Source of the DNA: an uncultured Clostridia bacterium
Lineage (GTDB): Bacteria > Bacillota > Clostridia > Christensenellales > CAG-917
NCBI GenBank assembly: GCA_947628255.1
Contig: CANQZE010000004.1
Coordinates: 1 to 32,923, forward strand
Reading direction: 5' to 3'
DNA: 32,923 nt
Position 1 is the stretch's first letter, and each line of letters starts with the position of its first letter. This document shows, one piece after another, positions 11,472 through 32,475 of the stretch. The notes beneath the pieces were generated by a model. That model was not told the origin of the DNA and searched no databases. It saw only the letters and a program-made list of their open reading frames with translations. A program made the translations under genes and the position numbers.

Positions 11472-13359
11472 AATCGTAGGAGGTTTCCTTCTCAATCACC
11501 GCCCCGGTCGCGGCGTCCACTTCCGCCTCATATTTGAGGTTGCCGATGAAAAACTCGACTTCATAGACCAATCTGAAATCGTCGCGCTCGAGCTTTATCT
11601 TGCGCAGGCTGATCTCTTTTTCTCTGCCGATGAGTTGGAACTCCTTGATGGCAAAATCGAGCGCCTGCTCCTCGGAGATGATGTCAGTGCCGCCGCTGAC
11701 GAACTCGTTGTTTTTGGCAACGGCGCCCGTGGTCGCGTCCACATAATAGTCGTACTCTCTGCCGTCGACGACGACCTCTATTTCATAGACAAATTTGCCG
11801 TTTTCGTACTCGAATTCCACTTTATCGACAAACACGTTTGCCTGCGCGCCGAGATATTCCTTGAGTGCGGCGACGGCCTGTTCTTTTGTGAGCGTCGTTG
11901 TGCCTGTCGAGGGAGGAGCGACGTGATTTTCATCTCGATCTATATCTTGCTCGAGAACCGCTCCCGTGGTTGCGTCGATCTCCGCTTCGTATTCGATGTT
12001 TCCGACATACAGTTTGACGATGTAGCGAAGGACGCCGTCCTCAAACTCCAGCTTGACAATCTGCCTGTCCACGGCGTCTGACGCGAGTTGGAAGATCTGC
12101 AACGCCTTGCTCACGGCTTCCTCTTCGGAGATGACCGCCTCCGAGGGTGCGGCGGCGTTCAGTATTTCGCCCGAGAGTGCGTCCACTTTGTATTCGCGCT
12201 TGACTCCGTTCACTCTCGCCTCGATCTCATAAAAATATTTGCTTCCTTCCTTGTCTATCTCGACTTCGAGGATGTAGATGTCCTCTCCCGCGACCTTCTT
12301 CACCGCGGCGATCGCCTCTTCTCGGGTGATGAACTGCCTGTTCTCGGGCAGAGGCGCGCTCTGTTGCGACTTGACGCTGTCGATTTCGACGTCGAGGATG
12401 GCGCCGTCCTCTGCGGAGATCTCAAACTCGTATTCCGCGCCTTTTGCGAGCAGTTCCACTTCGTACACAAATTGCCCGTCCTCTCTGTCGAGCTTGACTT
12501 TGCGGAAGGTATATTCCGTCCTCGTCTCGCCGTCCTTGAACACGAACGCAAGCGCGATCTCTTTTGCGCTTTCCGCTGTTATATCCTCAAAAAACGCGGG
12601 CGCGTCCGCCTCGAGGGCGCTCTTGGAAAACTTGACGATGTCGCCGCTGACCGCGTCTACGCTGACGTCGTAACGATAGGAGCGGAAATCGAAGCTCGCT
12701 TTGAATATTTTTCTGCCGTCCTCAAACTCGCTTCTCACAACTTTGGTCGAGATGTCGCCCGCCGTCGCTCCCGCCGCCTTGAGCGCCAATGAAAGCGCCG
12801 TCTGCTCGTCGATGTAAGACCCCGTGGGCAGATCTGTCTCAAACTCGATCTCGCTGTCAAGAAGCGTGAAGTCCGCCGCGTCGAAAATATACTCGTATTT
12901 CGCGCCGATCTCCTCGATCTCAACTTTATAAACGTCCTTGCCCATATACTTTTCGCGGTCGAAATCGAATCCCGTCACGCTCTGCGGCGCGAGTCCCGAA
13001 AGCTCGAGCGCCTTTGCATACGCCGTCTCGAGCGGAGAAAGCTCTTCCGCCGTCGTCGCGCTATGCGCTTTGTCCAGAAGGTCCGTCGACTTTTCCACCT
13101 CGAAGTCCTTGCCGACGACATATTCCACGGCGGAATCCTCCGCTATCACCGTGACGACATATTTGTCGCTTGTCCTCTTTGCGGTCTGCGTGACGACGTT
13201 TCCGTCGGGTACAACCGCATTGAACGCCTTCACGACGTCCGTATTTCCTGAAATTGTCGAGGGATGATCTACGTTCGGATCGCACGCCGCGAGAACGCAG
13301 CACGCAAAAACAAGAACAACCGTCGAAAACAGGATCGCCATATGTTTTGTTCTTCTCAT
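11470..13359 (-). CDS. Lipoprotein with seven tandem PepSY-like domains
   Basis: Start MRRTKHMAILFSTVVLVFACCVLAACDPN (SD AGAGGTG). Repeating pattern (I/L)(S/T)xEEA...GxxFxYEVE...YxYxVDAxTGAV counted seven times. Confidence 0.85.
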   Translation of the reverse strand: MRRTKHMAILFSTVVLVFACCVLAACDPNVDHPSTISGNTDVVKAFNAVVPDGNVVTQTAKRTSDKYVVTVIAEDSAVEYVVGKDFEVEKSTDLLDKAHSATTAEELSPLETAYAKALELSGLAPQSVTGFDFDREKYMGKDVYKVEIEEIGAKYEYIFDAADFTLLDSEIEFETDLPTGSYIDEQTALSLALKAAGATAGDISTKVVRSEFEDGRKIFKASFDFRSYRYDVSVDAVSGDIVKFSKSALEADAPAFFEDITAESAKEIALAFVFKDGETRTEYTFRKVKLDREDGQFVYEVELLAKGAEYEFEISAEDGAILDVEIDSVKSQQSAPLPENRQFITREEAIAAVKKVAGEDIYILEVEIDKEGSKYFYEIEARVNGVKREYKVDALSGEILNAAAPSEAVISEEEAVSKALQIFQLASDAVDRQIVKLEFEDGVLRYIVKLYVGNIEYEAEIDATTGAVLEQDIDRDENHVAPPSTGTTTLTKEQAVAALKEYLGAQANVFVDKVEFEYENGKFVYEIEVVVDGREYDYYVDATTGAVAKNNEFVSGGTDIISEEQALDFAIKEFQLIGREKEISLRKIKLERDDFRLVYEVEFFIGNLKYEAEVDAATGAVIEKETSYD

Positions 13360-13693
13360 TTTTTCACCTCTTTTTGTCGGGGGTCGCCCTTTTTGCATAA
13401 TACACGCAAAGGCGCGGCTTTCGGTTACACTTCCCGACAATATTTTGTTCCCGCGGATCGCGCTCTAAAAAGCCTTTCCGCGCGGGAAATATGTACGATA
13501 TCATATGTCCTAACACTATTATACCTCTTTGCGCGCGAAACAGCGAAATTTTTTTATCCGTTTTTGAGCGTCCCCTCTGAAACTTGCGGCGCAAATGAGC
13601 GCGTTTTGCCGAGCGAGCGCGGAGATATGGAGGTTTTCGACATTTTTCGACAAATATAGACACTCCGTCGCGACGTGAAAAACGCAAAACGGG

Positions 13694-14084: not shown

Positions 14085-16631
14085 TCACTCTTCGGATCCG
14101 CCCTCGGGTTGAGCGCCGCTTTCGGAAATTTCCTCGCCGCCTTCCTCGGGAGCCTCTTCTTGCTCCTCCTCGTGCGGAGTGAGCGCGATCGCCTTGACGG
14201 TCATCTTGTCGTCCTTGAGTTTCATCACGCGCACGCCCTGCGTGTTGCGCCCTATCTTGCTGATCTCTGCGCCGTTCACGCGGATGATGACGCCCGCGTC
14301 CGTAATCATCATCACGTCCGTATCCTGCGGAATGACCGCAAGCCCGACAAGCGCGCCCGTCCTCTCGTTGAACACGCCCGCGCGCACGCCCTTGCCCGCT
14401 CTGCCGTGCAGAGGATAGTCGGAGATGTCGCTGCGTTTGCCGAAGCCGTTCGCCGTGACGGTGAGGATATCGTCTCCCGCGTGGACCGCCGTGCAAGCGA
14501 CGAGCGTTGCGCCGTTTTTGAGGTTCATCGCCTTGACGCCCATAGCCGTCCTGCCCATCGGGCGGATCGCTTTCTCGTGGAAGTGGATCGCGAATCCCTC
14601 GCTGCTGGCGATGAGGATCTCGCTGTCGCCGTTTGTGATCATAGCGTCAAGCAACTCGTCCTCTTCGTTGAATTTGATGGCGATCTTGCCGTTTTTCTTG
14701 ATGGATTCGTACTCCTCGAGCGGCGTCTTTTTGATGAGGCCGCCGCGCGTCGCAAGCACAAGGAATTTGCCCGTCTTGTCCTCCGGCATACGGATGATCG
14801 TCTTGATCTTCTCGCCCTGCTCGAGTTGCAACAGATTGACCGCCGCCCTGCCGCGTGAGTTGCGCGTCGCCTCGGGGATCTCATAGCCCTTGAGCGTGAA
14901 CACTTTGCCGAGCGTCGTGAAGAACATCAGCCTCTCGTGCGTGTTGGACGTGAATATGTTCTCAACAAAGTCCTCGTCCTTCGCCTTGTGTCCCGTGACG
15001 CCCATTCCGCCGCGGTGCTGCGCCCTGTATTCGCTCACGGGGATGCGCTTGATATATCCGCTGTGCGTCATCGAGATGACGACGTCCTCCTGCTCGATGA
15101 GGTCCTCTATGTCGATATCGCCGTAGTCATAAGTCAGCGTGGACATTCTCGGAGTGCCGTATTGCGCCTTGATCTCGTTGATCTCGCGGATGATGATCGC
15201 CTTGACTTCCTCGTCGCTTGAAAGCACGAGGTTGAAATATTCGATCTGTTGGGCGAGGTCGCCGAGTTCCTGCTCTATCTTTTCGACTTCGAGGCCGGTG
15301 AGGCGTTGCAGGCGCATATCGAGGATCGCCGCCGCCTGCCTGTCGCTCAAGCCGTACGCCGCCATCAAGTTGTTCATAGCGTCTTGACGGTCGCGGGATT
15401 TTTTGAGCAGTTCCACGATCGCGTCGATGTTTTCAAGCGCGATGTGCAAGCCGAGCAGGATATGTTGTCTCTCCTGCGCCTTTTCGAGATCGAAACGCGT
15501 CCTGCGCACGATGACGTCCTTTTGGTGTGCGACATAGCACTCGAGTATCTCCTTGAGGTTGAGCACGCGAGGCACGCCGTCCACAAGCGCGAGCATAATC
15601 ATACTGAAGCTCGTCTGCATTGCCGTCTGCTTGTAGAGTTGATTGAGCAAAACTTGCGGATTGGCGTCCTTTTTGAGTTCGATGACGATGCGCATCCCGT
15701 GGCGGTCCGTCTCCTCGCGGAGATCGCTGATGCCCTCAAGGCGTTTGTCCTTGACTTGATCCGCGATGTTTTCGATGAGCTTCGCCTTGTTGACCTGATA
15801 GGGGATCTCCGTGACGACGATGCGGCTCTTGCCGTTTGCCATCTCTTCGATCTCCGCTCTCGCGCGCAGGATCGCGGCTCCGCGTCCCGTGCGATACGCC
15901 TGCTTTATGCCGCTCCTGCCCAAGATGAGCGCTCCCGTGGGGAAGTCGGGCGCGGGGATATATCCGATCAGCTCGTCGATCGTGATGTCGGGGTTGTTCA
16001 AAAGCGCCACAGTGGCGTCTATGACCTCGCCGAGGTTGTGCGGCGGGATAGACGTCGCCATACCCACCGCGATGCCGTCAGAGCCGTTTACGAGCAAATT
16101 CGGAAAACGGGACGGAAGCACCGTGGGCTGTTCGCGCGTGTCGTCGAAGTTGGGATAAAAATCGACGGTTTTCTTGTCGATATCGCGTATCATCTCGAGC
16201 GCGATCTTGCTCAGCCTCGACTCCGTATAACGATATGCCGCCGCGGGGTCGCCGTCCACGGAACCGAAGTTGCCGTGTCCGTCCACAAGCGGACAGCGGA
16301 TGGAGAAGTCCTGCGCGAGTCTGACGAGCGCGTCGTACACGGATCTGTCGCCATGGGGATGGTACTTGCCCAGCACCTCTCCGACGACCATAGCGCACTT
16401 TCTGTACGGCTTGTCGGGGGTGAGACCAAGCTCGCTCATTGCGTAAAGTATGCGCCTATGCACGGGCTTCAGACCGTCGCGCACGTCGGGTATGGCGCGC
16501 GACACGTTGACCGCCATCGCGTACGCGATAAATGACTTTTTCAGCTCGCCGTTGATCTCCACATCCTTGACGGTGGAGTCGGCGATATGCTTGATATATT
16601 CGTTGTTTTTGTCGTCTCTGATGTTTGCCAT
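14085..16631 (-). CDS. gyrA: DNA gyrase subunit A
   Basis: [62 protein letters not shown] and later blade motifs. SD AGAGGTG. Confidence 0.97.
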
Positions 16632-16641
16632 GGTTCACCTC

Positions 16642-18624
<1,983 letters not shown>

Positions 18625-18869: not shown

Positions 18870-19182
18870 CAAAATTTCGCGGTTTTCACGCCCAAAACCG
18901 AACAACGACGCGTTAACAACGCACTCAAAGCAACGTCATAAACCCCTCGCCGCAACCCGCGCCCGCAAAACAAAGTCCGCCTCGGTCGAGAAAACCGCCC
19001 TACAACGATCAATATCCGCACAACGGCAACGCTCGCCCGCGCGATCCGCCTTGGTATACCCGTATTAAGGACAAACAAAGCTCCATAAAGAAAATTTGAA
19101 TAATATTACCAAGCATTCGCGGCAATCAACTACGCCAACTATACCCACGAATGCCGTCGCAAGCCTATTTATGGCAAAAAGA

Positions 19183-19233
19183 AGCGCCTCTACGCCAGAA
19201 GTAGCGCCTCTACGCCAGAAGTAGCGCCTCTCC
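19183..19233 (+). repeat. 20-bp tandem repeat, about 2.5 copies
   Basis: AGCGCCTCTACGCCAGAAGT at 19183-19202 and 19203-19222, partial at 19223-19233. Confidence 0.85.
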
Positions 19234-19607
19234 GCATAAAAAACGATATACGACCTACATATCTACCCGTAAACAGGCGCAATGCAAGACCTAGGACTGT
19301 TTATTGTCACTTCTTGAGCAAATGTACCCATATAAACAGAGGCGCAATACAAGCGAAAATGCGGGTCTATATCATATATATCTCTCGACTGAGGTCCTTC
19401 TTTTGCCGCATTAAATTCTATAAAAATCAAAATCTGAAAAATATGTGAAACACGCAAGAAAATGTTGATTTTTTGAGAAACATATGATAGAATTTCAGCG
19501 GATGAAAAATTTGGGTGAAAGGCCTCTATAAAATTTGGGTCAAAGCCGCACATCGAGCATTCAGCCCCGCAAAAAGTCCACTGTTTAGTGGATTTATCTC
19601 GGTTCAG

Positions 19608-19623
19608 AGTTCCACGTGAAACT
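19608..19623. promoter_or_regulatory. parS: parS-like site
   Basis: AGTTCCACGTGAAACT, matching the core TTCCACGTGAAAC. Confidence 0.75.
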
Positions 19624-19639
19624 GACGGCCGATTCAAAT

Positions 19640-19655
19640 TGTTTCACGTGAAACA
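19640..19655. promoter_or_regulatory. parS: parS site, exact consensus
   Basis: TGTTTCACGTGAAACA, perfect 16-bp palindrome. Confidence 0.95.
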
Positions 19656-20248
19656 TAGATATACAGCCACATTTGAACATTTAATTTGCGAATTTGAAAA
19701 TCTGCAACGCACAGCGTGTTTTGACCACACTAAGGACGCATCATAGCCGTACGCAAGCACTTCGAAACAGCGATGGGCCGCTGTCACAGGTATAAACCGC
19801 AGGCCATCGCGATCCCCGATTAGTCTCGGTGGGTCTATGGGACAAAAAGGCAGCTACCTCTCATATCACCCGTTAGGAGCGCCATTCACCGTTATATCAA
19901 GGCAATGCCGCCTTAACCACCGTGTTCTATCAATGACACGCAACCCCAAAAGCCACACACCACAACCCACCCCGTCGCATCACAAGAAATCAATGGCCGA
20001 AAAAACATCGCGAATCAAAAACTGTCGCGATCGCGCAAGACAGGAGTGAAGGCGAGGAGCTGACGCATTGCGCCAAATATTATCGTCACATTGCTCAAGT
20101 TTCAATGTCACTCACGGCGTATGCGCCCATATGCAAGCAATTGCAAATAAAACGCAATACAAACCCGCACAAGCGTAACGACAATCGCCCCAATCAAACC
20201 TACAGCCCATAACATTCAAATTCCCGCGCACACGACAATCACAAGCTT

Positions 20249-20264
20249 TGTTTCACGTGAAACT
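20249..20264. promoter_or_regulatory. parS: parS site
   Basis: TGTTTCACGTGAAACT, one mismatch at the last base. Confidence 0.9.
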
Positions 20265-20394
20265 TCAAAATTTTTCTATAATAAATTTATAACCGCTCAT
20301 CTGACAATCTCCAGAAAAATCTGATAAGAATTTTGTTAGATCGTTTTTCAAAGTTCTACCGTCGAATCATAAATTTTGAAAATTCTATTGTTGA

Positions 20395-20410
20395 TGTTAC
20401 ACGTGGAACA
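20395..20410. promoter_or_regulatory. parS: parS-like site
   Basis: TGTTACACGTGGAACA. Confidence 0.75.
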
Positions 20411-20589
20411 TTTGTTCTTATAGAAAATTTTATCCAAAAAAATCAATTGTCCGCCTATTTTTTTTGTTATTCTCAATCTATTCACACAGCTGTTCCCGAA
20501 ATCTCTTTATCTGCAAATATAATTACAAAGATGACACAATGGCTTTTGCTTTTTCAAATTCTTTCTTCTTTCGCAGAATCTAATTCTAA

Positions 20590-20620
20590 AAAATTAACTC
20601 GGGATTTATTTCCCGAGCCG
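20590..20620 (-). terminator. Possible rho-independent terminator (minus)
   Basis: Minus strand CTCGGGA-aataaa-TCCCGAG followed by TTAATTTTTTAG. Confidence 0.65.
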
Positions 20621-21076
20621 CTTGAATACATTTATATTATTGCCTTCTTCTTGTTATGATCCGCTTTGCGATCTACCGATCCATTCTGTAGTGCTTTATT
20701 GCAACCCACTACTTGCCGCCTTTTGTGCGACTCCGCGTCGCCTCTCGCATATTTTCTCCGCGCGGACTCTCCGTTTTTCTCAGCATAGCTTCTTCCGCTT
20801 ACTTTTTCAGCTTTATACGCTTGTTTTTTCGCATAACCGCTCCCGTACCCTTCAAATCACTATTACAGTTTCCGCACGTTTTCTCCACATCGTTTTTCAA
20901 TTTTCTCCGCGTTTTGAAATTCTCTTCTTCGAATCCTATTATAAATTGGTTAAATTGTTAATTTGTTTTCGTCCCTCTCTTTTCCTATCCGACATTGCCA
21001 CCTCCCCTCCTCTTCATCCGACAGGGCAGGGCAACCTCTCGCTCAATTTACTAGCCATATTCATCGAACGCTCTTT

Positions 21077-21890: not shown

Positions 21891-21919
21891 TTGATTTTGC
21901 CGCCGCAAAATGGTATGCT
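21891..21919 (+). promoter_or_regulatory. rsmG promoter, predicted leaderless
   Basis: TTGATT (21891-21896), 17 bp, TATGCT (21914-21919), 6 nt, ATG at 21926. Confidence 0.65.
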
Positions 21920-21925
21920 TATCAT

Positions 21926-22621
21926 ATGAACCAAGAAAATATGAAAATCCTATTGACGGGGCTGAAAAAGCTGGACGTCAAATTCGACATTGTCGAGCCG
22001 TGCGCCCTCATCGCATTTCACGATTACGTGCAGGCCGGCAACCGCGATATGAATCTGACCGCCATCACGGACGAGGAGGAGTTTGTCGTCAAACATCTCC
22101 TCGACAGCGCGAGCGCGATCCCGTACATCGGGCAAGGCGCGAAGGTGCTTGACATCGGCACGGGCGCGGGTTTTCCCGCGGTGCCTCTCGCCGTTTTGAG
22201 GAGCGACATCTCCGTGACGGCGCTGGACGCAACCGAAAAAAAGGTGGAGTTTGTCAAAAGCGCCATTGCCGCTTTGAGGCTTTCCAACATCGAGGCTGTG
22301 TGCGGCAGGGCGGAGGAGATGACCGAGCTTTTCGGCAAATTCGACGTCGTGACGGCGCGCGCTGTCGCGTCTCTCCCCGTGTTGCTCGAACTTGCGGCGC
22401 CTATGCTGAAGGTCGGCGGCGAATTCATCGCCTACAAGTCCGGCGAGAGCGAGCTTGACTCCGCAAAAAACGCGATGTCGGTTTTGAAAATGCAGCACGC
22501 CGCCACGCACGCGCTCGACATCGAAGGCAACTCGCGCGCGCTGATCGTGTTCAAAAAGACTGCCTCGACGCCCGCGGGATATCCTCGCCGCTACAGCGCC
22601 ATCAAAAATTCCCCTCTGTGA
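21926..22621 (+). CDS. rsmG: 16S rRNA (guanine-N7)-methyltransferase
   Basis: DMNLTAITDEEEFVVKHLLDSASAIPYIGQGAKVLDIGTGAGFPAVPLAVLRSDISVTALDATEKKVEFV. Track start 20963 is an over-extension; first credible ATG is 21926. Confidence 0.93.
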   Translation: MNQENMKILLTGLKKLDVKFDIVEPCALIAFHDYVQAGNRDMNLTAITDEEEFVVKHLLDSASAIPYIGQGAKVLDIGTGAGFPAVPLAVLRSDISVTALDATEKKVEFVKSAIAALRLSNIEAVCGRAEEMTELFGKFDVVTARAVASLPVLLELAAPMLKVGGEFIAYKSGESELDSAKNAMSVLKMQHAATHALDIEGNSRALIVFKKTASTPAGYPRRYSAIKNSPL

Positions 22622-22686: not shown

Positions 22687-22715
22687 TTGAAAAATCGCGC
22701 GGTTTGTGTTACACT
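22687..22715 (+). promoter_or_regulatory. parAB promoter, predicted leaderless
   Basis: TTGAAA (22687-22692), 17 bp, TACACT (22710-22715), 6 nt, ATG at 22722. No SD. Confidence 0.65.
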
Positions 22716-22721
22716 CGATTT

Positions 22722-23507
22722 ATGGCAAAAATTATTTCTTTCTCAAACCAAAAGGGCGGCGTAGGCAAGACCACCACCTGCGTGGATCTTGCGGCGGCGC
22801 TTGCGGCAAGCGGCAAAAGAGTTTTGATCGTGGACTTCGACCCGCAGGGCAATGCGTCAAGCGCTCTCGGTATATTTGACAAAAAGACAAAAAACTCTGT
22901 CTACAACGTGCTTTGCGACGACGTTTCCGCGGAGCAAGCCGTGCGCGCGTCCGAGCTTGACGGGCTTTACATCATCCCCTCCTCGGACGATCTCGCGGGC
23001 GCGGAGTTGGAGCTGAGTCAGATCGTCATCGGCAGGGAGCGCGTTCTTGAGGAAAAGCTCGAGACTCTCAAGGACAAATTCGACTATGTTTTTATCGACT
23101 GTCCGCCCTCGCTCGGTCTGCTCACGGTCAACGCGCTGACGGCGTCAAACGGCGTGCTTATCCCCATACAGTGCGAGTTTTTCGCGCTCGAGGGGCTGAG
23201 CCAGATGATGAACACGATCAAATTGGTCAAAAAGCACCTCAACGCGACTTTGGACGTGACGGGCGTCGTCCTCACGATGTACGACGGGCGATCCAAGCTC
23301 TCTCGCGGCGTGCTTGAAGAGATATCGAAATATTTCGGGGACAAGGTTTTCGACGCGAAGATCCCTCGCAACATCCGCCTTGCGGAAGCGCCGAGCTATG
23401 GCAAACCGATCTTGCTTTACGACCGTCGGTGCGCGGGCGCGGCGGCGTACGACAAGCTCGCAAGCGAGTTCTTGGCGCGCGAAGAGAAACCCCTTGAGAT
23501 CAAATGA
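22722..23507 (+). CDS. parA: ParA/Soj chromosome partition ATPase
   Basis: MAKIISFSNQKGGVGKTTTCVDLAAALAASGKRVLIVDFDPQGNASSALG, deviant Walker A; VFIDCPPSLGLLTVNAL. Confidence 0.96.
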   Translation: MAKIISFSNQKGGVGKTTTCVDLAAALAASGKRVLIVDFDPQGNASSALGIFDKKTKNSVYNVLCDDVSAEQAVRASELDGLYIIPSSDDLAGAELELSQIVIGRERVLEEKLETLKDKFDYVFIDCPPSLGLLTVNALTASNGVLIPIQCEFFALEGLSQMMNTIKLVKKHLNATLDVTGVVLTMYDGRSKLSRGVLEEISKYFGDKVFDAKIPRNIRLAEAPSYGKPILLYDRRCAGAAAYDKLASEFLAREEKPLEIK

Positions 23508-24520: not shown

Positions 24521-25615
24521 TCAGTCCTTGGCGACGGTGCCGTCGCAAATCAAAAATTTGTCGGCGGGGACGGGCAAGTCATACTCGGTGCAGGTGAGAA
24601 TGGTCTGAAAGCCCTGCGTCATCTTAAGCAACAAGTTTTGTCTTGTCTCGTCAAGCTCGCTCAGCACGTCGTCGAGGAGCAAGACGGGCGGCTCGCCAAT
24701 GCCGTCTCTGAAAATGACCACCTCGCCCAACTTCATAGACAGGGCGACGGTGCGCTGTTGTCCTTGCGACGCAAACTTGCGGCTGTCCTTGCCGTCGAGT
24801 TCGATCTTGATGTCGTCGCGATGAGGCCCCACCGTGCAAAAGCCGAGTTCCTTGTCCTTCTCGCGCGCCGCCTTGATCGCCCGAAGCAAATATTGCTCGA
24901 GGTCGTCGCTCAATAGCGCCTCCTCGCTCATACCGTTTTCATAGGAGAGTTTCAGCTCCTCTTTTTGTCCGCTTATTATGTTGTGAAATTTTCCCGCTGC
25001 GGCGTTGAGCGTCGAGATGTATTGAAGCCTGCGCTTTATGATGAGCGCGCCCTCTTTTGCAAGCCCCATATCCCACACGTCGAGCATATCGTCTATGTTT
25101 GAGCTGTGACGATACTCTTTGAGCAGGTTATTTTTCTGTTTCAGGGTTTTACCGTAGCGTTGCAGGGAGATAAAATAGCTTTTTTGCTGTTGCGAGAGAC
25201 CGACGTCCAAAAATCTGCGCCTTTCGGACGGGGCCTCTTTAACAAGTTTCATCTCGTCGGGAGAGAAGAAAACGACGCCCAATGTCCCAAGCAATTCGCC
25301 CGCTCTAAGGATGGGGACGCCGTCCACGACGACCTTCTTTTTCCCCTGCGAATCTATGTGCAAAATGATGGTGTGCGATCTGAATTTGCGCGCCACTGTC
25401 AGCTTGACGGTCGCGCTGTCCTCACCCAATTTGACAAGCTCTTTGTCCTTTGAAGTGCGAGGGCTTTTGAAAATGGAACAGAGATAGACGCTCTCAAGCA
25501 AATTTGTCTTTCCGCTCGCGTTTTTCCCGTGCAAAACGTTCAGCCCGTCCCCGAATTTTACGGTCGCAGACCTGTAGTTGCGGAAGTTGTTCAATTCAAG
25601 CGATTCTATCCTCAT
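24521..25615 (-). CDS. recF: DNA replication/repair protein RecF
   Basis: MRIESLELNNFRNYRSATVKFGDGLNVLHGKNASGKTNLLESVYLCS, VVFFSPDEMKLVKEAPSERRRFLDVGLSQ, SQGQQRTVALSMKLGE, LLLDDVLSELD. Confidence 0.96.
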   Translation of the reverse strand: MRIESLELNNFRNYRSATVKFGDGLNVLHGKNASGKTNLLESVYLCSIFKSPRTSKDKELVKLGEDSATVKLTVARKFRSHTIILHIDSQGKKKVVVDGVPILRAGELLGTLGVVFFSPDEMKLVKEAPSERRRFLDVGLSQQQKSYFISLQRYGKTLKQKNNLLKEYRHSSNIDDMLDVWDMGLAKEGALIIKRRLQYISTLNAAAGKFHNIISGQKEELKLSYENGMSEEALLSDDLEQYLLRAIKAAREKDKELGFCTVGPHRDDIKIELDGKDSRKFASQGQQRTVALSMKLGEVVIFRDGIGEPPVLLLDDVLSELDETRQNLLLKMTQGFQTILTCTEYDLPVPADKFLICDGTVAKD

Positions 25616-25623
25616 ACACAACA

Positions 25624-25652
25624 AGTATATCTCAGCGGCGATTTTTTTTCAA
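25624..25652 (-). promoter_or_regulatory. recF promoter, predicted near-leaderless
   Basis: Minus strand TTGAAA-17-TATACT, then 8 nt TGTTGTGT before ATG. No SD. Confidence 0.6.
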
Positions 25653-25687
25653 CATATTGTGTTTAGATTTCTTTTTTTGTTTTTCGC

Positions 25688-25715
25688 TTGCTATTTTTTT
25701 TGGTTTTGATATAAT
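25688..25715 (+). promoter_or_regulatory. dnaA promoter, predicted leaderless
   Basis: TTGCTA (25688-25693), 16 bp, TATAAT (25710-25715), 7 nt to ATG at 25723. No SD. Confidence 0.6.
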
Positions 25716-25722
25716 CAATGGT

Positions 25723-27093
25723 ATGTTAGATCTCAACGCTTTTTGGGCGGACGCAAAAAATCAACTTTCTATTTCCATACAGGCAATAAGCTATGAGGTT
25801 TGGATAGAAAAACTCGAGCCGGTGTGCGTCGTTGGCGGCAAAACGCTGGTTCTTCTCACTATATCCGAAACGTCCAAACGCACGATCGACACTCGCTATC
25901 TCGACAAGATCCGCGAAGTGGTCTGCACCATCAACTCTTCCATCACCGACGTTGTCATCACCACTCCCGAAAAGAAGGACGAATTTCTCAAACATCAAAA
26001 CGTTTTCCTCGAGGACGAAGGTTTTGTCGCGACCTCCGCGCAACCCTCTCCCAAAAAGAAAAATCCTTTTCTTGCAAAGTACACTTTCGACACTTTCATC
26101 GAGGGTAAATCCAACGCCTATGCGCTTGCCGCAAGCAAGACCGTCGCGGAAGAGCCGGGCGAAAAATACAATCCTCTTTTCATCTATTCGGGCGTTGGGC
26201 TTGGCAAAACTCACTTGTTGCACGCAATAGGCAACTATCTGTACAAAAACAAGCCTGAAAAGACGGTGCTTTATGTCAGCGCCGACACTCTCATCACGGA
26301 GTTTTTGTCCATTATGCACCCGAAGTCCCGCGAGGACGCGACGAATATCCGCGAAAAGTACAACAGCGCGGACGTGCTTATGGTGGACGACATCCAATCC
26401 CTCATCAACAAAGAGGCGACGCAAGAGCTGTTTTTCAACGTTTTCAACGATCTCTATCACAGGAGCAAACAGATCATTCTCACCTCCGATCGCTCGCCGA
26501 AAGATCTGACGACGCTTGAGGATAGGTTGCGCACGCGCTTCAGTTGGGGTCTGACGGTCGACATCCAGATCCCCGATATGGAGACGAGGGTCGCCATTTT
26601 GAAAAATAAGGCCGCGCAGGCAAAATTTGCCCTCAGCGACGAGGTTGCGGAGTTTATAGCGGAAAGCTCCACCACAAACATCCGCGAGATGGAGGGGCTT
26701 CTCAACAAGATAGTGTTTTTCAGCTCGCTCGCAAACAGAGTCATAGACACAAAAGAGCTTGCTTATGAGGCGCTCAGCGACTTCATTGAGGACAAAAAGG
26801 AGACCATCGACGCAAGCGACATTGTGGACGCGGTCTGCAAATATTTCAACCTTTCCACGGCGGAAATTATGTCCTCAAAGCGTACAAAAAACATTGTGGA
26901 GCCGAGGATGATCGCGATCTATCTCATCACGGAATTGCTTCCTATGCCGCTCGCTCAGATAGGCGAGATGTTCGGGGGAAAAGATCATACGACAATCATT
27001 CACGCTCGCGACAAGATAGGCGAGGAGATCCGCACGAATCCCCGCATCAAAATCGCCGTTGCGGACCTCAAAAATATGTTGCTCAACAGATGA
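25723..27093 (+). CDS. dnaA: Chromosomal replication initiator DnaA
   Basis: YNPLFIYSGVGLGKTHLLHAIGN, VLMVDDIQSLINKEATQELFFNVFNDLYHRSKQIILTSDRSPKDL, FGGKDHTTIIHARDKI. Track start 25504 runs back into recF; ATG at 25723 gives MLDLNAFWADAKNQLSISIQAISYEVWI. Confidence 0.97.
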   Translation: MLDLNAFWADAKNQLSISIQAISYEVWIEKLEPVCVVGGKTLVLLTISETSKRTIDTRYLDKIREVVCTINSSITDVVITTPEKKDEFLKHQNVFLEDEGFVATSAQPSPKKKNPFLAKYTFDTFIEGKSNAYALAASKTVAEEPGEKYNPLFIYSGVGLGKTHLLHAIGNYLYKNKPEKTVLYVSADTLITEFLSIMHPKSREDATNIREKYNSADVLMVDDIQSLINKEATQELFFNVFNDLYHRSKQIILTSDRSPKDLTTLEDRLRTRFSWGLTVDIQIPDMETRVAILKNKAAQAKFALSDEVAEFIAESSTTNIREMEGLLNKIVFFSSLANRVIDTKELAYEALSDFIEDKKETIDASDIVDAVCKYFNLSTAEIMSSKRTKNIVEPRMIAIYLITELLPMPLAQIGEMFGGKDHTTIIHARDKIGEEIRTNPRIKIAVADLKNMLLNR

Positions 27094-29905: not shown

Positions 29906-31006
29906 TCAACCTATGACGCGGAGAGGCAGGATAAGGTAGAGCCATTGATCCGACGAGCCTTTGATGATGCCGGGCGCCGTCGACGTCGTAAAGTTGAGAG
30001 TGATAAAAGGCTCTTCGATCGCGTGCATACAATCCGTGATATATTTCGCATTGAATCCGATCGTGAGGTCTTTCCCTTTGAGGCCGATCGAGAGTTTTTC
30101 ATTGATCTCGCCATCCTCGCTGTGCGCGCTGAGTTGCAGATTTTCCTCTTTGATCTCCATTTTGACATACGATCTCTTGTCGAGTCTGTTGATGAGGGAA
30201 ACGCGGTCTATCGAATTTTCAAACAATTTTTTGTCGACCGTGACTTCGGTTGTGAATGACACGGGAATGATCTTCTCATAGTTTATATACTCTTCGCCAA
30301 TGAGGCGCGACACGAGTTTTGTATGGAAGAGATCCACCATAATATAGCTCTTGTCAACATAGATTGTGATTGCTTCCTCTCCGTCGTCGATGAGGCGGGA
30401 AAGCTCGTTCATACTCTTTGACGGCACGACGATCTTGTCGATCACGCCGTTGTTTTTGACAAGGGCGCGCGTGAGCGCCAAACGATATCCGTCGGACGCG
30501 ACCGCTTCGATCTCGTTTTCCTTGATATTGAGGCAAACGCCGCGCAACGTCGGGCGCGCCTCGTCGATGGACACGTTGAAGATGACTTTGTTGATGATGG
30601 TCTTTAGGTCCTTTTTGAGGATGACAAAAGAATTTTCCGTGTTTACTTCCTTGAAAACGGGATATTCGTCACTCGGAAGAGTTTTGATTTGAAGTTCGCT
30701 GTCGAGATATTTGATGACGAGCTTATTGAGAGAAGTGCCGTCCAGCTCGACTTCTTCCTCTTCTATCTTTTTTGCATAATCCGCAAACAGCTTGCCGGGA
30801 ACGACGATCTCGCCGTCGATCAAAACAGAAGCGTTGATTTTTTTCTCTATCGCAAGCTCGAGATCGGTTGCGAAAATAGTGAGCGTTTCGCCCTCCGCCG
30901 TTATCTTAACGCCGTCGAGAATAGGGTTTGTCCTCTTTGAAGGCAAAGCCTTCACAACCTTTGCGAGAGCGTCGCTCAATTCGTTTCCTTGACACACAAC
31001 TTTCAT
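29906..31006 (-). CDS. dnaN: DNA polymerase III beta sliding clamp
   Basis: MKVVCQGNELSDALAKVVKALPSKRTNPILDGVKI, VPSKSMNELSRLI, C-terminal LILPLRVIG. SD GGGTGG; promoter TTGTCA-17-TATCAT. Confidence 0.95.
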   Translation of the reverse strand: MKVVCQGNELSDALAKVVKALPSKRTNPILDGVKITAEGETLTIFATDLELAIEKKINASVLIDGEIVVPGKLFADYAKKIEEEEVELDGTSLNKLVIKYLDSELQIKTLPSDEYPVFKEVNTENSFVILKKDLKTIINKVIFNVSIDEARPTLRGVCLNIKENEIEAVASDGYRLALTRALVKNNGVIDKIVVPSKSMNELSRLIDDGEEAITIYVDKSYIMVDLFHTKLVSRLIGEEYINYEKIIPVSFTTEVTVDKKLFENSIDRVSLINRLDKRSYVKMEIKEENLQLSAHSEDGEINEKLSIGLKGKDLTIGFNAKYITDCMHAIEEPFITLNFTTSTAPGIIKGSSDQWLYLILPLRVIG

Positions 31007-31082: not shown

Positions 31083-31167
31083 TTATCCATAACAACAATA
31101 CTTTGTTGAAGAAAATTAAAAACAATGCAATATATTGTGTTATCTGCAAAAAACGCTATGTGGATAA
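31083..31167. promoter_or_regulatory. DnaA-box-like sites upstream of dnaN
   Basis: TTATCCATA (31083-31091, one mismatch) and exact TGTGGATAA (31159-31167) in an AT-rich 200-bp gap. Confidence 0.5.
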
Positions 31168-31216: not shown

Positions 31217-32266
31217 TCAAATAGGAAGAGTGGAGAAGTTGAAGCAAAGAGAACTCAGATAAGCGACTATGACGCTGATGAAAAACATCAACAAAAACAC
31301 GCAAACGTTTTGTTTTATGCGCTTATCTTTGAAAAGATATACAAAGGCGACTCCCGCGTTCATACAAAGGCCGCCTAGCGCCGCGCCGAAACCTATTCCT
31401 TCCAAAATATAAAGCTCGCTCAATATCACGGAAGAGACGCAATTTGGGATAGCGCCGACTATCACCGCAAACAGAGGCGCGACATATTTGTTTGCAGATA
31501 GGAAGGAAATTATTTTATCCTCGCCGATATAATAGATCAACACGCCGAAAACAATATTAATAACAAAAACATAAAGGAAAATTTCAAGCGAGTGAAGAAG
31601 AGGCTTTATCAAAAACCTGTTCAGTTTTTCCTTCTTCGTGGCTTTTTTGTCCGCCTCTTTTTTATATTCAAACAAAATACCTTCGTTTTTTTGTTCGAAT
31701 CTGCAATGTTGAGGGGTACACTCCGCGTGAAGGTGAGGGCAGGAACTTTGCTTGCAAGATTCGCAATCGCAGGGAGATATCTCGCCGTGAGGACATCTGT
31801 CGACAAGTTTTGTACCCTCGTATTCCATAAGAGTGATTTGATATTCATCCTCGCAATGGTCCAGATGATGTTTGACGCTTTTCGCGCCTTTTTGATAGAT
31901 AAGATCGATCAGATATCCTAAAATCAGCCCAAGAAGAAATTTTGACAACAGCAAAGGCAATACGTGCAGAGCTTTGTCCGGATAGCTCAAAAAGACGGGA
32001 AGAGCCTCGTCTGACGTCGCGAGATATATGCCTATCAATGTGCCGAGAGTAAGATGTTTTTTGTGGTACAGATCGGTCGCCACAACGGAAAATCCGCACT
32101 GCGGCAACATAGCGACGCTCACGCCGATAAGCGTCGCAAACTTTCCGTTCAAGCGGATCTTGTCCGAGAGAAGAGGCTCGAGAAAAGAAATGAGATAGGT
32201 GAAAACAGCCACCACCAAAAGCAGCTTGAGACTGTCTATAAACGCGTCCAGAAAAACCTCTCCCAT
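31217..32266 (-). CDS. Putative 10-TM heavy-metal exporter / manganese transporter (ArsP_2-like) with Cys/His-rich central insert
   Basis: MGEVFLDAFIDSLKLLLVVAVFTYLISFLEPLL...ATLIGVSVAMLPQCGFSVVATDLYHKKHLTLGTLIGIYLATSDEALPV; second half AVIVGAIPNCVSSVILSELYI. Insert CPHGEISPCDCESCKQSSCPHLHAECTPQHC. Start at 32266 inferred; track start 32356. Confidence 0.8.
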   Translation of the reverse strand: MGEVFLDAFIDSLKLLLVVAVFTYLISFLEPLLSDKIRLNGKFATLIGVSVAMLPQCGFSVVATDLYHKKHLTLGTLIGIYLATSDEALPVFLSYPDKALHVLPLLLSKFLLGLILGYLIDLIYQKGAKSVKHHLDHCEDEYQITLMEYEGTKLVDRCPHGEISPCDCESCKQSSCPHLHAECTPQHCRFEQKNEGILFEYKKEADKKATKKEKLNRFLIKPLLHSLEIFLYVFVINIVFGVLIYYIGEDKIISFLSANKYVAPLFAVIVGAIPNCVSSVILSELYILEGIGFGAALGGLCMNAGVAFVYLFKDKRIKQNVCVFLLMFFISVIVAYLSSLCFNFSTLPI

Positions 32267-32475
32267 AACGCGCATATTATGAAACAAAAGCAAGAAAAAA
32301 TCAATTGAAAAATAAAAACATATCAAACAATATGAATATAATAATATAAATTCCAAAAAAAAGCCCGTCCGCTTGCCATCGTAAAGAAGGAAATAAAATA
32401 ATAATGATTTGAAATTTGAAAAATCCTTGACAAAAACCCAAAACAGGATATATTATATACAAGCATCAACCAGAT

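Follow-up and report, generated by a model that had tools for sequence, protein, structure and literature searches.

Closely Placed Divergent Promoters Predict Leaderless or Near-Leaderless dnaA and recF mRNAs in an Uncultured Family of Clostridia

Results

The recF-dnaA Gap Carries Two Promoters Close to the Start Codons

The window analysed here, a stretch of 32,923 nucleotides, is contig C4 of a 1.41-Mb draft genome (G000) that is 86% complete. It carries recF and dnaA as a divergent pair, separated by an intergenic gap of 107 bp, with the following features:

24521..25615, minus strand: recF CDS, ATG start (complement 25613-25615), 364 aa; TIGR00611, 352.2 bits, above cut-off
25624..25629, minus strand: recF -10 box TATACT, 8 nt before the ATG
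25647..25652, minus strand: recF -35 box TTGAAA, 17-bp spacer to the -10 box; conserved in the window's genus
25688..25693, plus strand: dnaA -35 box TTGCTA, 16-bp spacer to the -10 box; family consensus GCTTGAAA (27-gap alignment)
25710..25715, plus strand: dnaA -10 box TATAAT, 7 nt before the ATG at 25723
25723..27093, plus strand: dnaA CDS, ATG start, 456 aa; TIGR00362, 475.7 bits, above cut-off

An earlier, sequence-only reading of this DNA had described dnaA as TTGCTA-16-TATAAT-7-ATG and recF as TTGAAA-17-TATACT-8-ATG, neither with a Shine-Dalgarno (SD) sequence, and both are as it described them; no 4-nt SD core was found between -22 and -4 of dnaA or recF. A misplaced dnaA start codon was ruled out, as 30 relatives align with the protein from its first residue onwards, and an earlier start was rejected, the in-frame starts upstream falling inside recF.

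The same architecture had been ascribed to rsmG and parA, and this holds, the -10 boxes of both genes lying 6 nt before the ATG:

21891-21896, plus strand: rsmG -35 box TTGATT
21914..21919, plus strand: rsmG -10 box TATGCT, 6 nt before the ATG at 21926; 17-bp spacer
22687-22692, plus strand: parA -35 box TTGAAA
22710..22715, plus strand: parA -10 box TACACT, 6 nt before the ATG at 22722; 17-bp spacer

The rsmG ortholog in G011, a genome of the window's genus, keeps its promoter at 6 nt, and so do the parA orthologs in G011 and in G026, a genome from another genus of the family (TTGAA..TACACT/TATAAT).

Elsewhere in the window, the called ATG of an arsenic efflux family gene (31217-32275, minus strand) directly follows CATAAT, and a second ATG lies 9 nt past the box; this may be another leaderless gene with its start called too early. 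Between gyrB and mtnN, about 2.2 kb (18910-21070) is without recognisable genes or RNA families; this interval is AT-rich, with a strong negative GC skew and a 20-bp tandem repeat at 19179-19235.

Genes without an SD Show a Position-Specific Promoter Peak

The genome-wide sample comprised 1.09 Mb of G000 with 698 genes (293 without an SD core and 405 SD genes), and a complete promoter was defined as a -35/-10 pair with a score of 8 or more. Because our home-made gene caller used coding content and start-codon type only, upstream signals were unable to bias the called starts; a few starts (e.g., those of rarA, rnhA and parA) were shifted by hand. Among the 293 non-SD genes, 22 complete promoters were found 6-7 nt before the start, against 2.3 expected (P ~8e-15), with 14 at 6 nt and 8 at 7 nt, compared to about 1.1 per position elsewhere. 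The exact TATAAT had 16 occurrences at 6-7 nt; at any other single position, the count ranged from 0 to 3. A complete promoter at 5-9 nt was found for 1 of the 405 SD genes, whose promoters sit further upstream. Whether this geometry is commoner across the genome than chance was the test proposed in the sequence-only reading, and its outcome favours that reading.

The high-scoring cases amount to 29 predicted leaderless genes (4.2% of the 698); all 29 start with ATG, and GTG or TTG is used by 72 of the 669 others. The same positional peak was present at 6-8 nt in both G011 and G026, and was absent from a small control, 200 kb of E. coli K-12 processed in the same way.

A further peak at 0 nt, with TATAAT directly before the called ATG or GTG, was discarded, being due partly to a general preference for T at -1 and partly to starts called too early. 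The starts of rarA and rnhA had been called two codons early, the next ATG lying at 6 nt. The -1 T preference is strong in the genes of G000, G011 and G026: in G000, T precedes 60% of start codons overall and about 66-69% of those of SD genes, compared to 22-34% in the E. coli control. It is possibly due to an extended pairing with the initiator tRNA.

The peak bears on a different account of the recF-dnaA gap, in which the -10 boxes match by chance in AT-rich DNA, transcription starts from true promoters further upstream, and the ribosome initiates on an ordinary leader independently of an SD. The gap is AT-rich, as this account would have it, and many non-SD genes of the genome have no nearby promoter; however, it has to contend with a genome-wide peak that is specific to position, as well as with the conservation described below.

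The Promoter Geometry Is Conserved across the Family

The divergent arrangement of recF and dnaA is found in 28 of 30 family loci, with a short gap in 27. In 27 of the 27 relatives with the divergent pair, the exact TATAAT lies 6-10 nt before the dnaA ATG (exactly 7 nt in 21) and dnaA has no SD (0/27); the box is still kept when dnaA identity among relatives falls to 60%. The alignment of the 27 gaps, whose members share ancestry and are not phylogenetically independent, shows that the dnaA -35 box is conserved at 16-18 bp and that the bases between the -10 box and the ATG vary. For recF, a close -10 box (TATACT, TATAAT or TATATT) lies at 6-9 nt in 21 of the 27 relatives, and the six that have lost it are all family members outside the window's genus.

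The geometry is also retained gene by gene. Among orthologs of the leaderless genes in G011 and G026, 12 of 15 keep a promoter at 5-9 nt; the corresponding figure is 4 of 149 for the orthologs of SD genes and 1 of 103 for those of other non-SD genes (Fisher P ~1e-12). We regard this retention as the strongest evidence for selection on the geometry. Chance matches in AT-rich DNA are difficult to reconcile with the orthologs, with an exact dnaA TATAAT in every relative or with a -35 box held at its spacing, and we consider this account of the gap very improbable.

The Predicted Leaderless Set Is Functionally Mixed

The sequence-only reading had also proposed that chromosome-maintenance genes form a leaderless regulon of their own, co-controlled via shared leaderless initiation. 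The leaderless set does include genes of replication, repair and segregation (dnaA, recF, parA, dnaX, uvrC, rarA and rnhA); however, dnaN, gyrA and gyrB lie outside it, and many unrelated genes lie within it. Among the latter are thiN (thiamine diphosphokinase), birA, ispE, nadD/yqeK, adk, pyrC (dihydroorotase), a glmM-like gene, lepB (signal peptidase I), an RF1-like gene, rqcH, rsmG, genes for an RlmL-like methyltransferase, a sensor kinase and an nrdG-type activase, and homologs of spoIIGA, yunB and ylmC/ymxH. The set is therefore a mixture of cofactor, nucleotide, RNA-modification, sporulation and repair genes. In a small functional test, with about 40 of about 45 leaderless candidates annotated and compared with 50 random other genes, replication and repair genes made up 7 of 45 leaderless and 2 of 50 random genes, which is not significant (P = 0.08); leaving out the three cases from the sequence-only reading itself, the counts were 4 of 42 and 2 of 50 (P = 0.41). 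Moreover, the figure legend of Zheng et al. 2011 names category L in eighth place, provided that its order is meant as a ranking (PMC3160421). Given the mixed set and the non-significant excess, a regulon of this kind is not supported, and we judge it unlikely.

A yunB-like gene and rarA (G000:C22 11661-13404, L031) likewise form a divergent pair, each with a close -10 box. There, rarA is apparently split between two reading frames, with the C-terminal part encoded by an ORF of its own (12802-13404).

DnaA Boxes and NrdR-Box-Like Sites

Autoregulation by DnaA is known for dnaA promoters of the E. coli and B. subtilis type. As in those systems, dnaA lies here near other replication genes; unlike them, it has a divergent recF, a gap with no convincing DnaA box, and boxes upstream of dnaN. 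The absence of a DnaA box from the gap, already remarked on in the sequence-only reading, was borne out: the best match to TTATCCACA in the gap has 2 mismatches, a level also reached in shuffles, and the looser TTWTNCACA has no exact match within the gap, with 1-mismatch matches to it present at and near the gap. Exact DnaA boxes are located upstream of dnaN, at 31159 and 31178.

The gap and the region upstream of dnaN also carry sites resembling the NrdR box:

25647..25662, no strand assigned: candidate NrdR-box-like palindrome TTTCAACATATTGTGT (reverse, recF strand: ACACAATATGTTGAAA), overlapping the recF -35 box
29906-31006, minus strand: dnaN, with an NrdR-box-like pair upstream
31093-31108, no strand assigned: weak partner of the dnaN NrdR-box-like site, 32 bp away
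31125..31140, no strand assigned: NrdR-box-like site ATGCAATATATTGTGT upstream of dnaN, rank 4 in 1.09 Mb

The sites were ranked in the 1.09 Mb with a PWM built from the nrdD upstream regions of the family, where, within the genus, most operators consist of two boxes spaced 32 bp apart and have the core ACAATATRTTGTGT. nrdD, which is related to the training set, ranked 2, a gyrB/parE-type gene 3, dnaN 4 and the recF-dnaA gap 17. The match at the gyrB/parE-type topoisomerase gene (15936-17906) is at G000:C7:17937 (L007), 31 bp upstream of the gene.

The gap palindrome, about 60 nt upstream of the dnaA start, raises the possibility that the gap is also NrdR-controlled, which would place recF, and perhaps also dnaA, under the same dNTP-sensing repressor as nrdD and, probably, dnaN. 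Such control is compatible with the leaderless-promoter explanation; nrdR is present in the genome, and the gap box and nrdD share the 11-nt core ACAATATGTTG. The palindrome occupies the same place in about 16 of the 27 gaps (shuffle p<=0.02) and is near-perfect in one relative (G023), with 1 mismatch to the 16-bp consensus ACACWATATATWGTGT. The stronger pair upstream of dnaN and the box near the gyrB/parE-type gene point the same way. In the window, however, the box has 4 mismatches to the consensus, about 11 of the 27 relatives have no convincing box, and the conservation of one half is explained equally by the recF -35 box.

Known NrdR operators of ribonucleotide reductase genes are 16-bp palindromes with a core close to that of the gap site (PMC12051234, PMC12176259), and tight NrdR binding needs pairs of boxes with 14-17 or 24-27 bp spacers (PMC12051234). 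Like these operators, the boxes of nrdD and those upstream of dnaN in G000 are paired (32 bp start-to-start), a second box with a 14-17 bp spacer being present at nrdD and, weakly, upstream of dnaN. The gap site, unlike them, is single, degenerate and sequence-predicted: no second box with a 14-17 bp spacer was found there, and the best partner, 31 bp away, has 7 mismatches. Since NrdR binds pairs with such spacers, NrdR control is a candidate for recF and dnaA and is more likely for dnaN; for the gap, we put it forward tentatively, as a possibility that is more doubtful than not.

Upstream of dnaN, the NrdR-box-like pair (31093-31140) adjoins the two exact DnaA boxes, and a pair with the same 32-bp spacing, again with DnaA boxes, is found in G011. 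dnaN is thus a candidate for control by both NrdR and DnaA, and its upstream region is possibly part of an origin.

Discussion

In the model that we propose, two back-to-back housekeeping (sigma-70/SigA type) promoters would drive dnaA and recF. Their -10 boxes lie 7 nt (dnaA) and 8 nt (recF) before the ATG, so that RNA polymerase would initiate at the A of this codon or no more than about 4 nt away from it. Because a polymerase starting at its usual distance would do so at or near this A, both mRNAs would be leaderless or nearly so; from normal -10-to-start distances, the 5′ leader of dnaA is predicted at 0-2 nt and that of recF at 0-4 nt, the exact start sites being estimates. The ribosome would then have to begin on the AUG itself, without SD pairing. 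An additional promoter upstream could give dnaA or recF a longer 5′ end, still without an SD.

Leaderless or near-leaderless expression of both genes, as suggested in the sequence-only reading, is supported by the genome-wide excess over chance and by the conservation in relatives. From the promoter geometry, the lack of an SD, the enrichment and the conservation observed in the sequence, we infer where transcription starts and that translation is leaderless. Hence, dnaA and recF are very probably transcribed from back-to-back promoters as leaderless or near-leaderless mRNAs and would belong to a minor class that makes up about 4% of genes and is conserved at the level of individual genes across the family.

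A broader scheme would place dnaA/recF, dnaN and the topoisomerase gene in an NrdR regulon, where dNTP status, and not DnaA, sets transcription, and where the translation of leaderless DnaA and RecF mRNAs hinges on ribosome and initiation-factor state. This we consider improbable.

The sequence-only reading had held that a leaderless regulon for chromosome maintenance would be unexpected in a Firmicute. That leaderless genes should be unexpected there is not supported: Zheng et al. 2011 (PMC3160421) reported them in 56 of 209 Firmicutes genomes, at a mean of 4.2% among those genomes, mostly in Lactobacillales and Mycoplasma. In three solventogenic Clostridia with mapped TSSs, 2-3% of transcripts were leaderless, with a 5′ UTR under 6 nt (PMC9045289). 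The roughly 4% in G000 equals the mean of the Firmicutes genomes having any, and the G000 set resembles that survey in its functional mix, information-processing categories being relatively richer in leaderless genes there (PMC3160421). It shares with the survey genes that have a TA-like signal a Pribnow-type box just upstream of the start and the lack of an SD. In the solventogenic Clostridia, as in G000, leaderless transcripts are a minor class, measured there and predicted here, and dnaA is not mentioned in that work (PMC9045289). Unlike the Firmicutes of Zheng et al. 2011, the present case concerns an uncultured gut Clostridia family, with dnaA and recF as conserved members, and a full-text literature search found no paper combining 'leaderless', 'dnaA' and 'recF'. 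What is new here is a clostridial family with dnaA itself as a conserved, predicted leaderless member.

The level and timing of DnaA control the initiation of replication. If leaderless dnaA expression is true family-wide, DnaA synthesis would not rely on SD pairing and would respond to whatever factors promote the translation of leaderless mRNAs, and a conserved leaderless class would be extended to an uncultured clostridial lineage. The positional promoter peak, together with the conservation in orthologs, suggests that leaderless genes can be reliably found from sequence alone.
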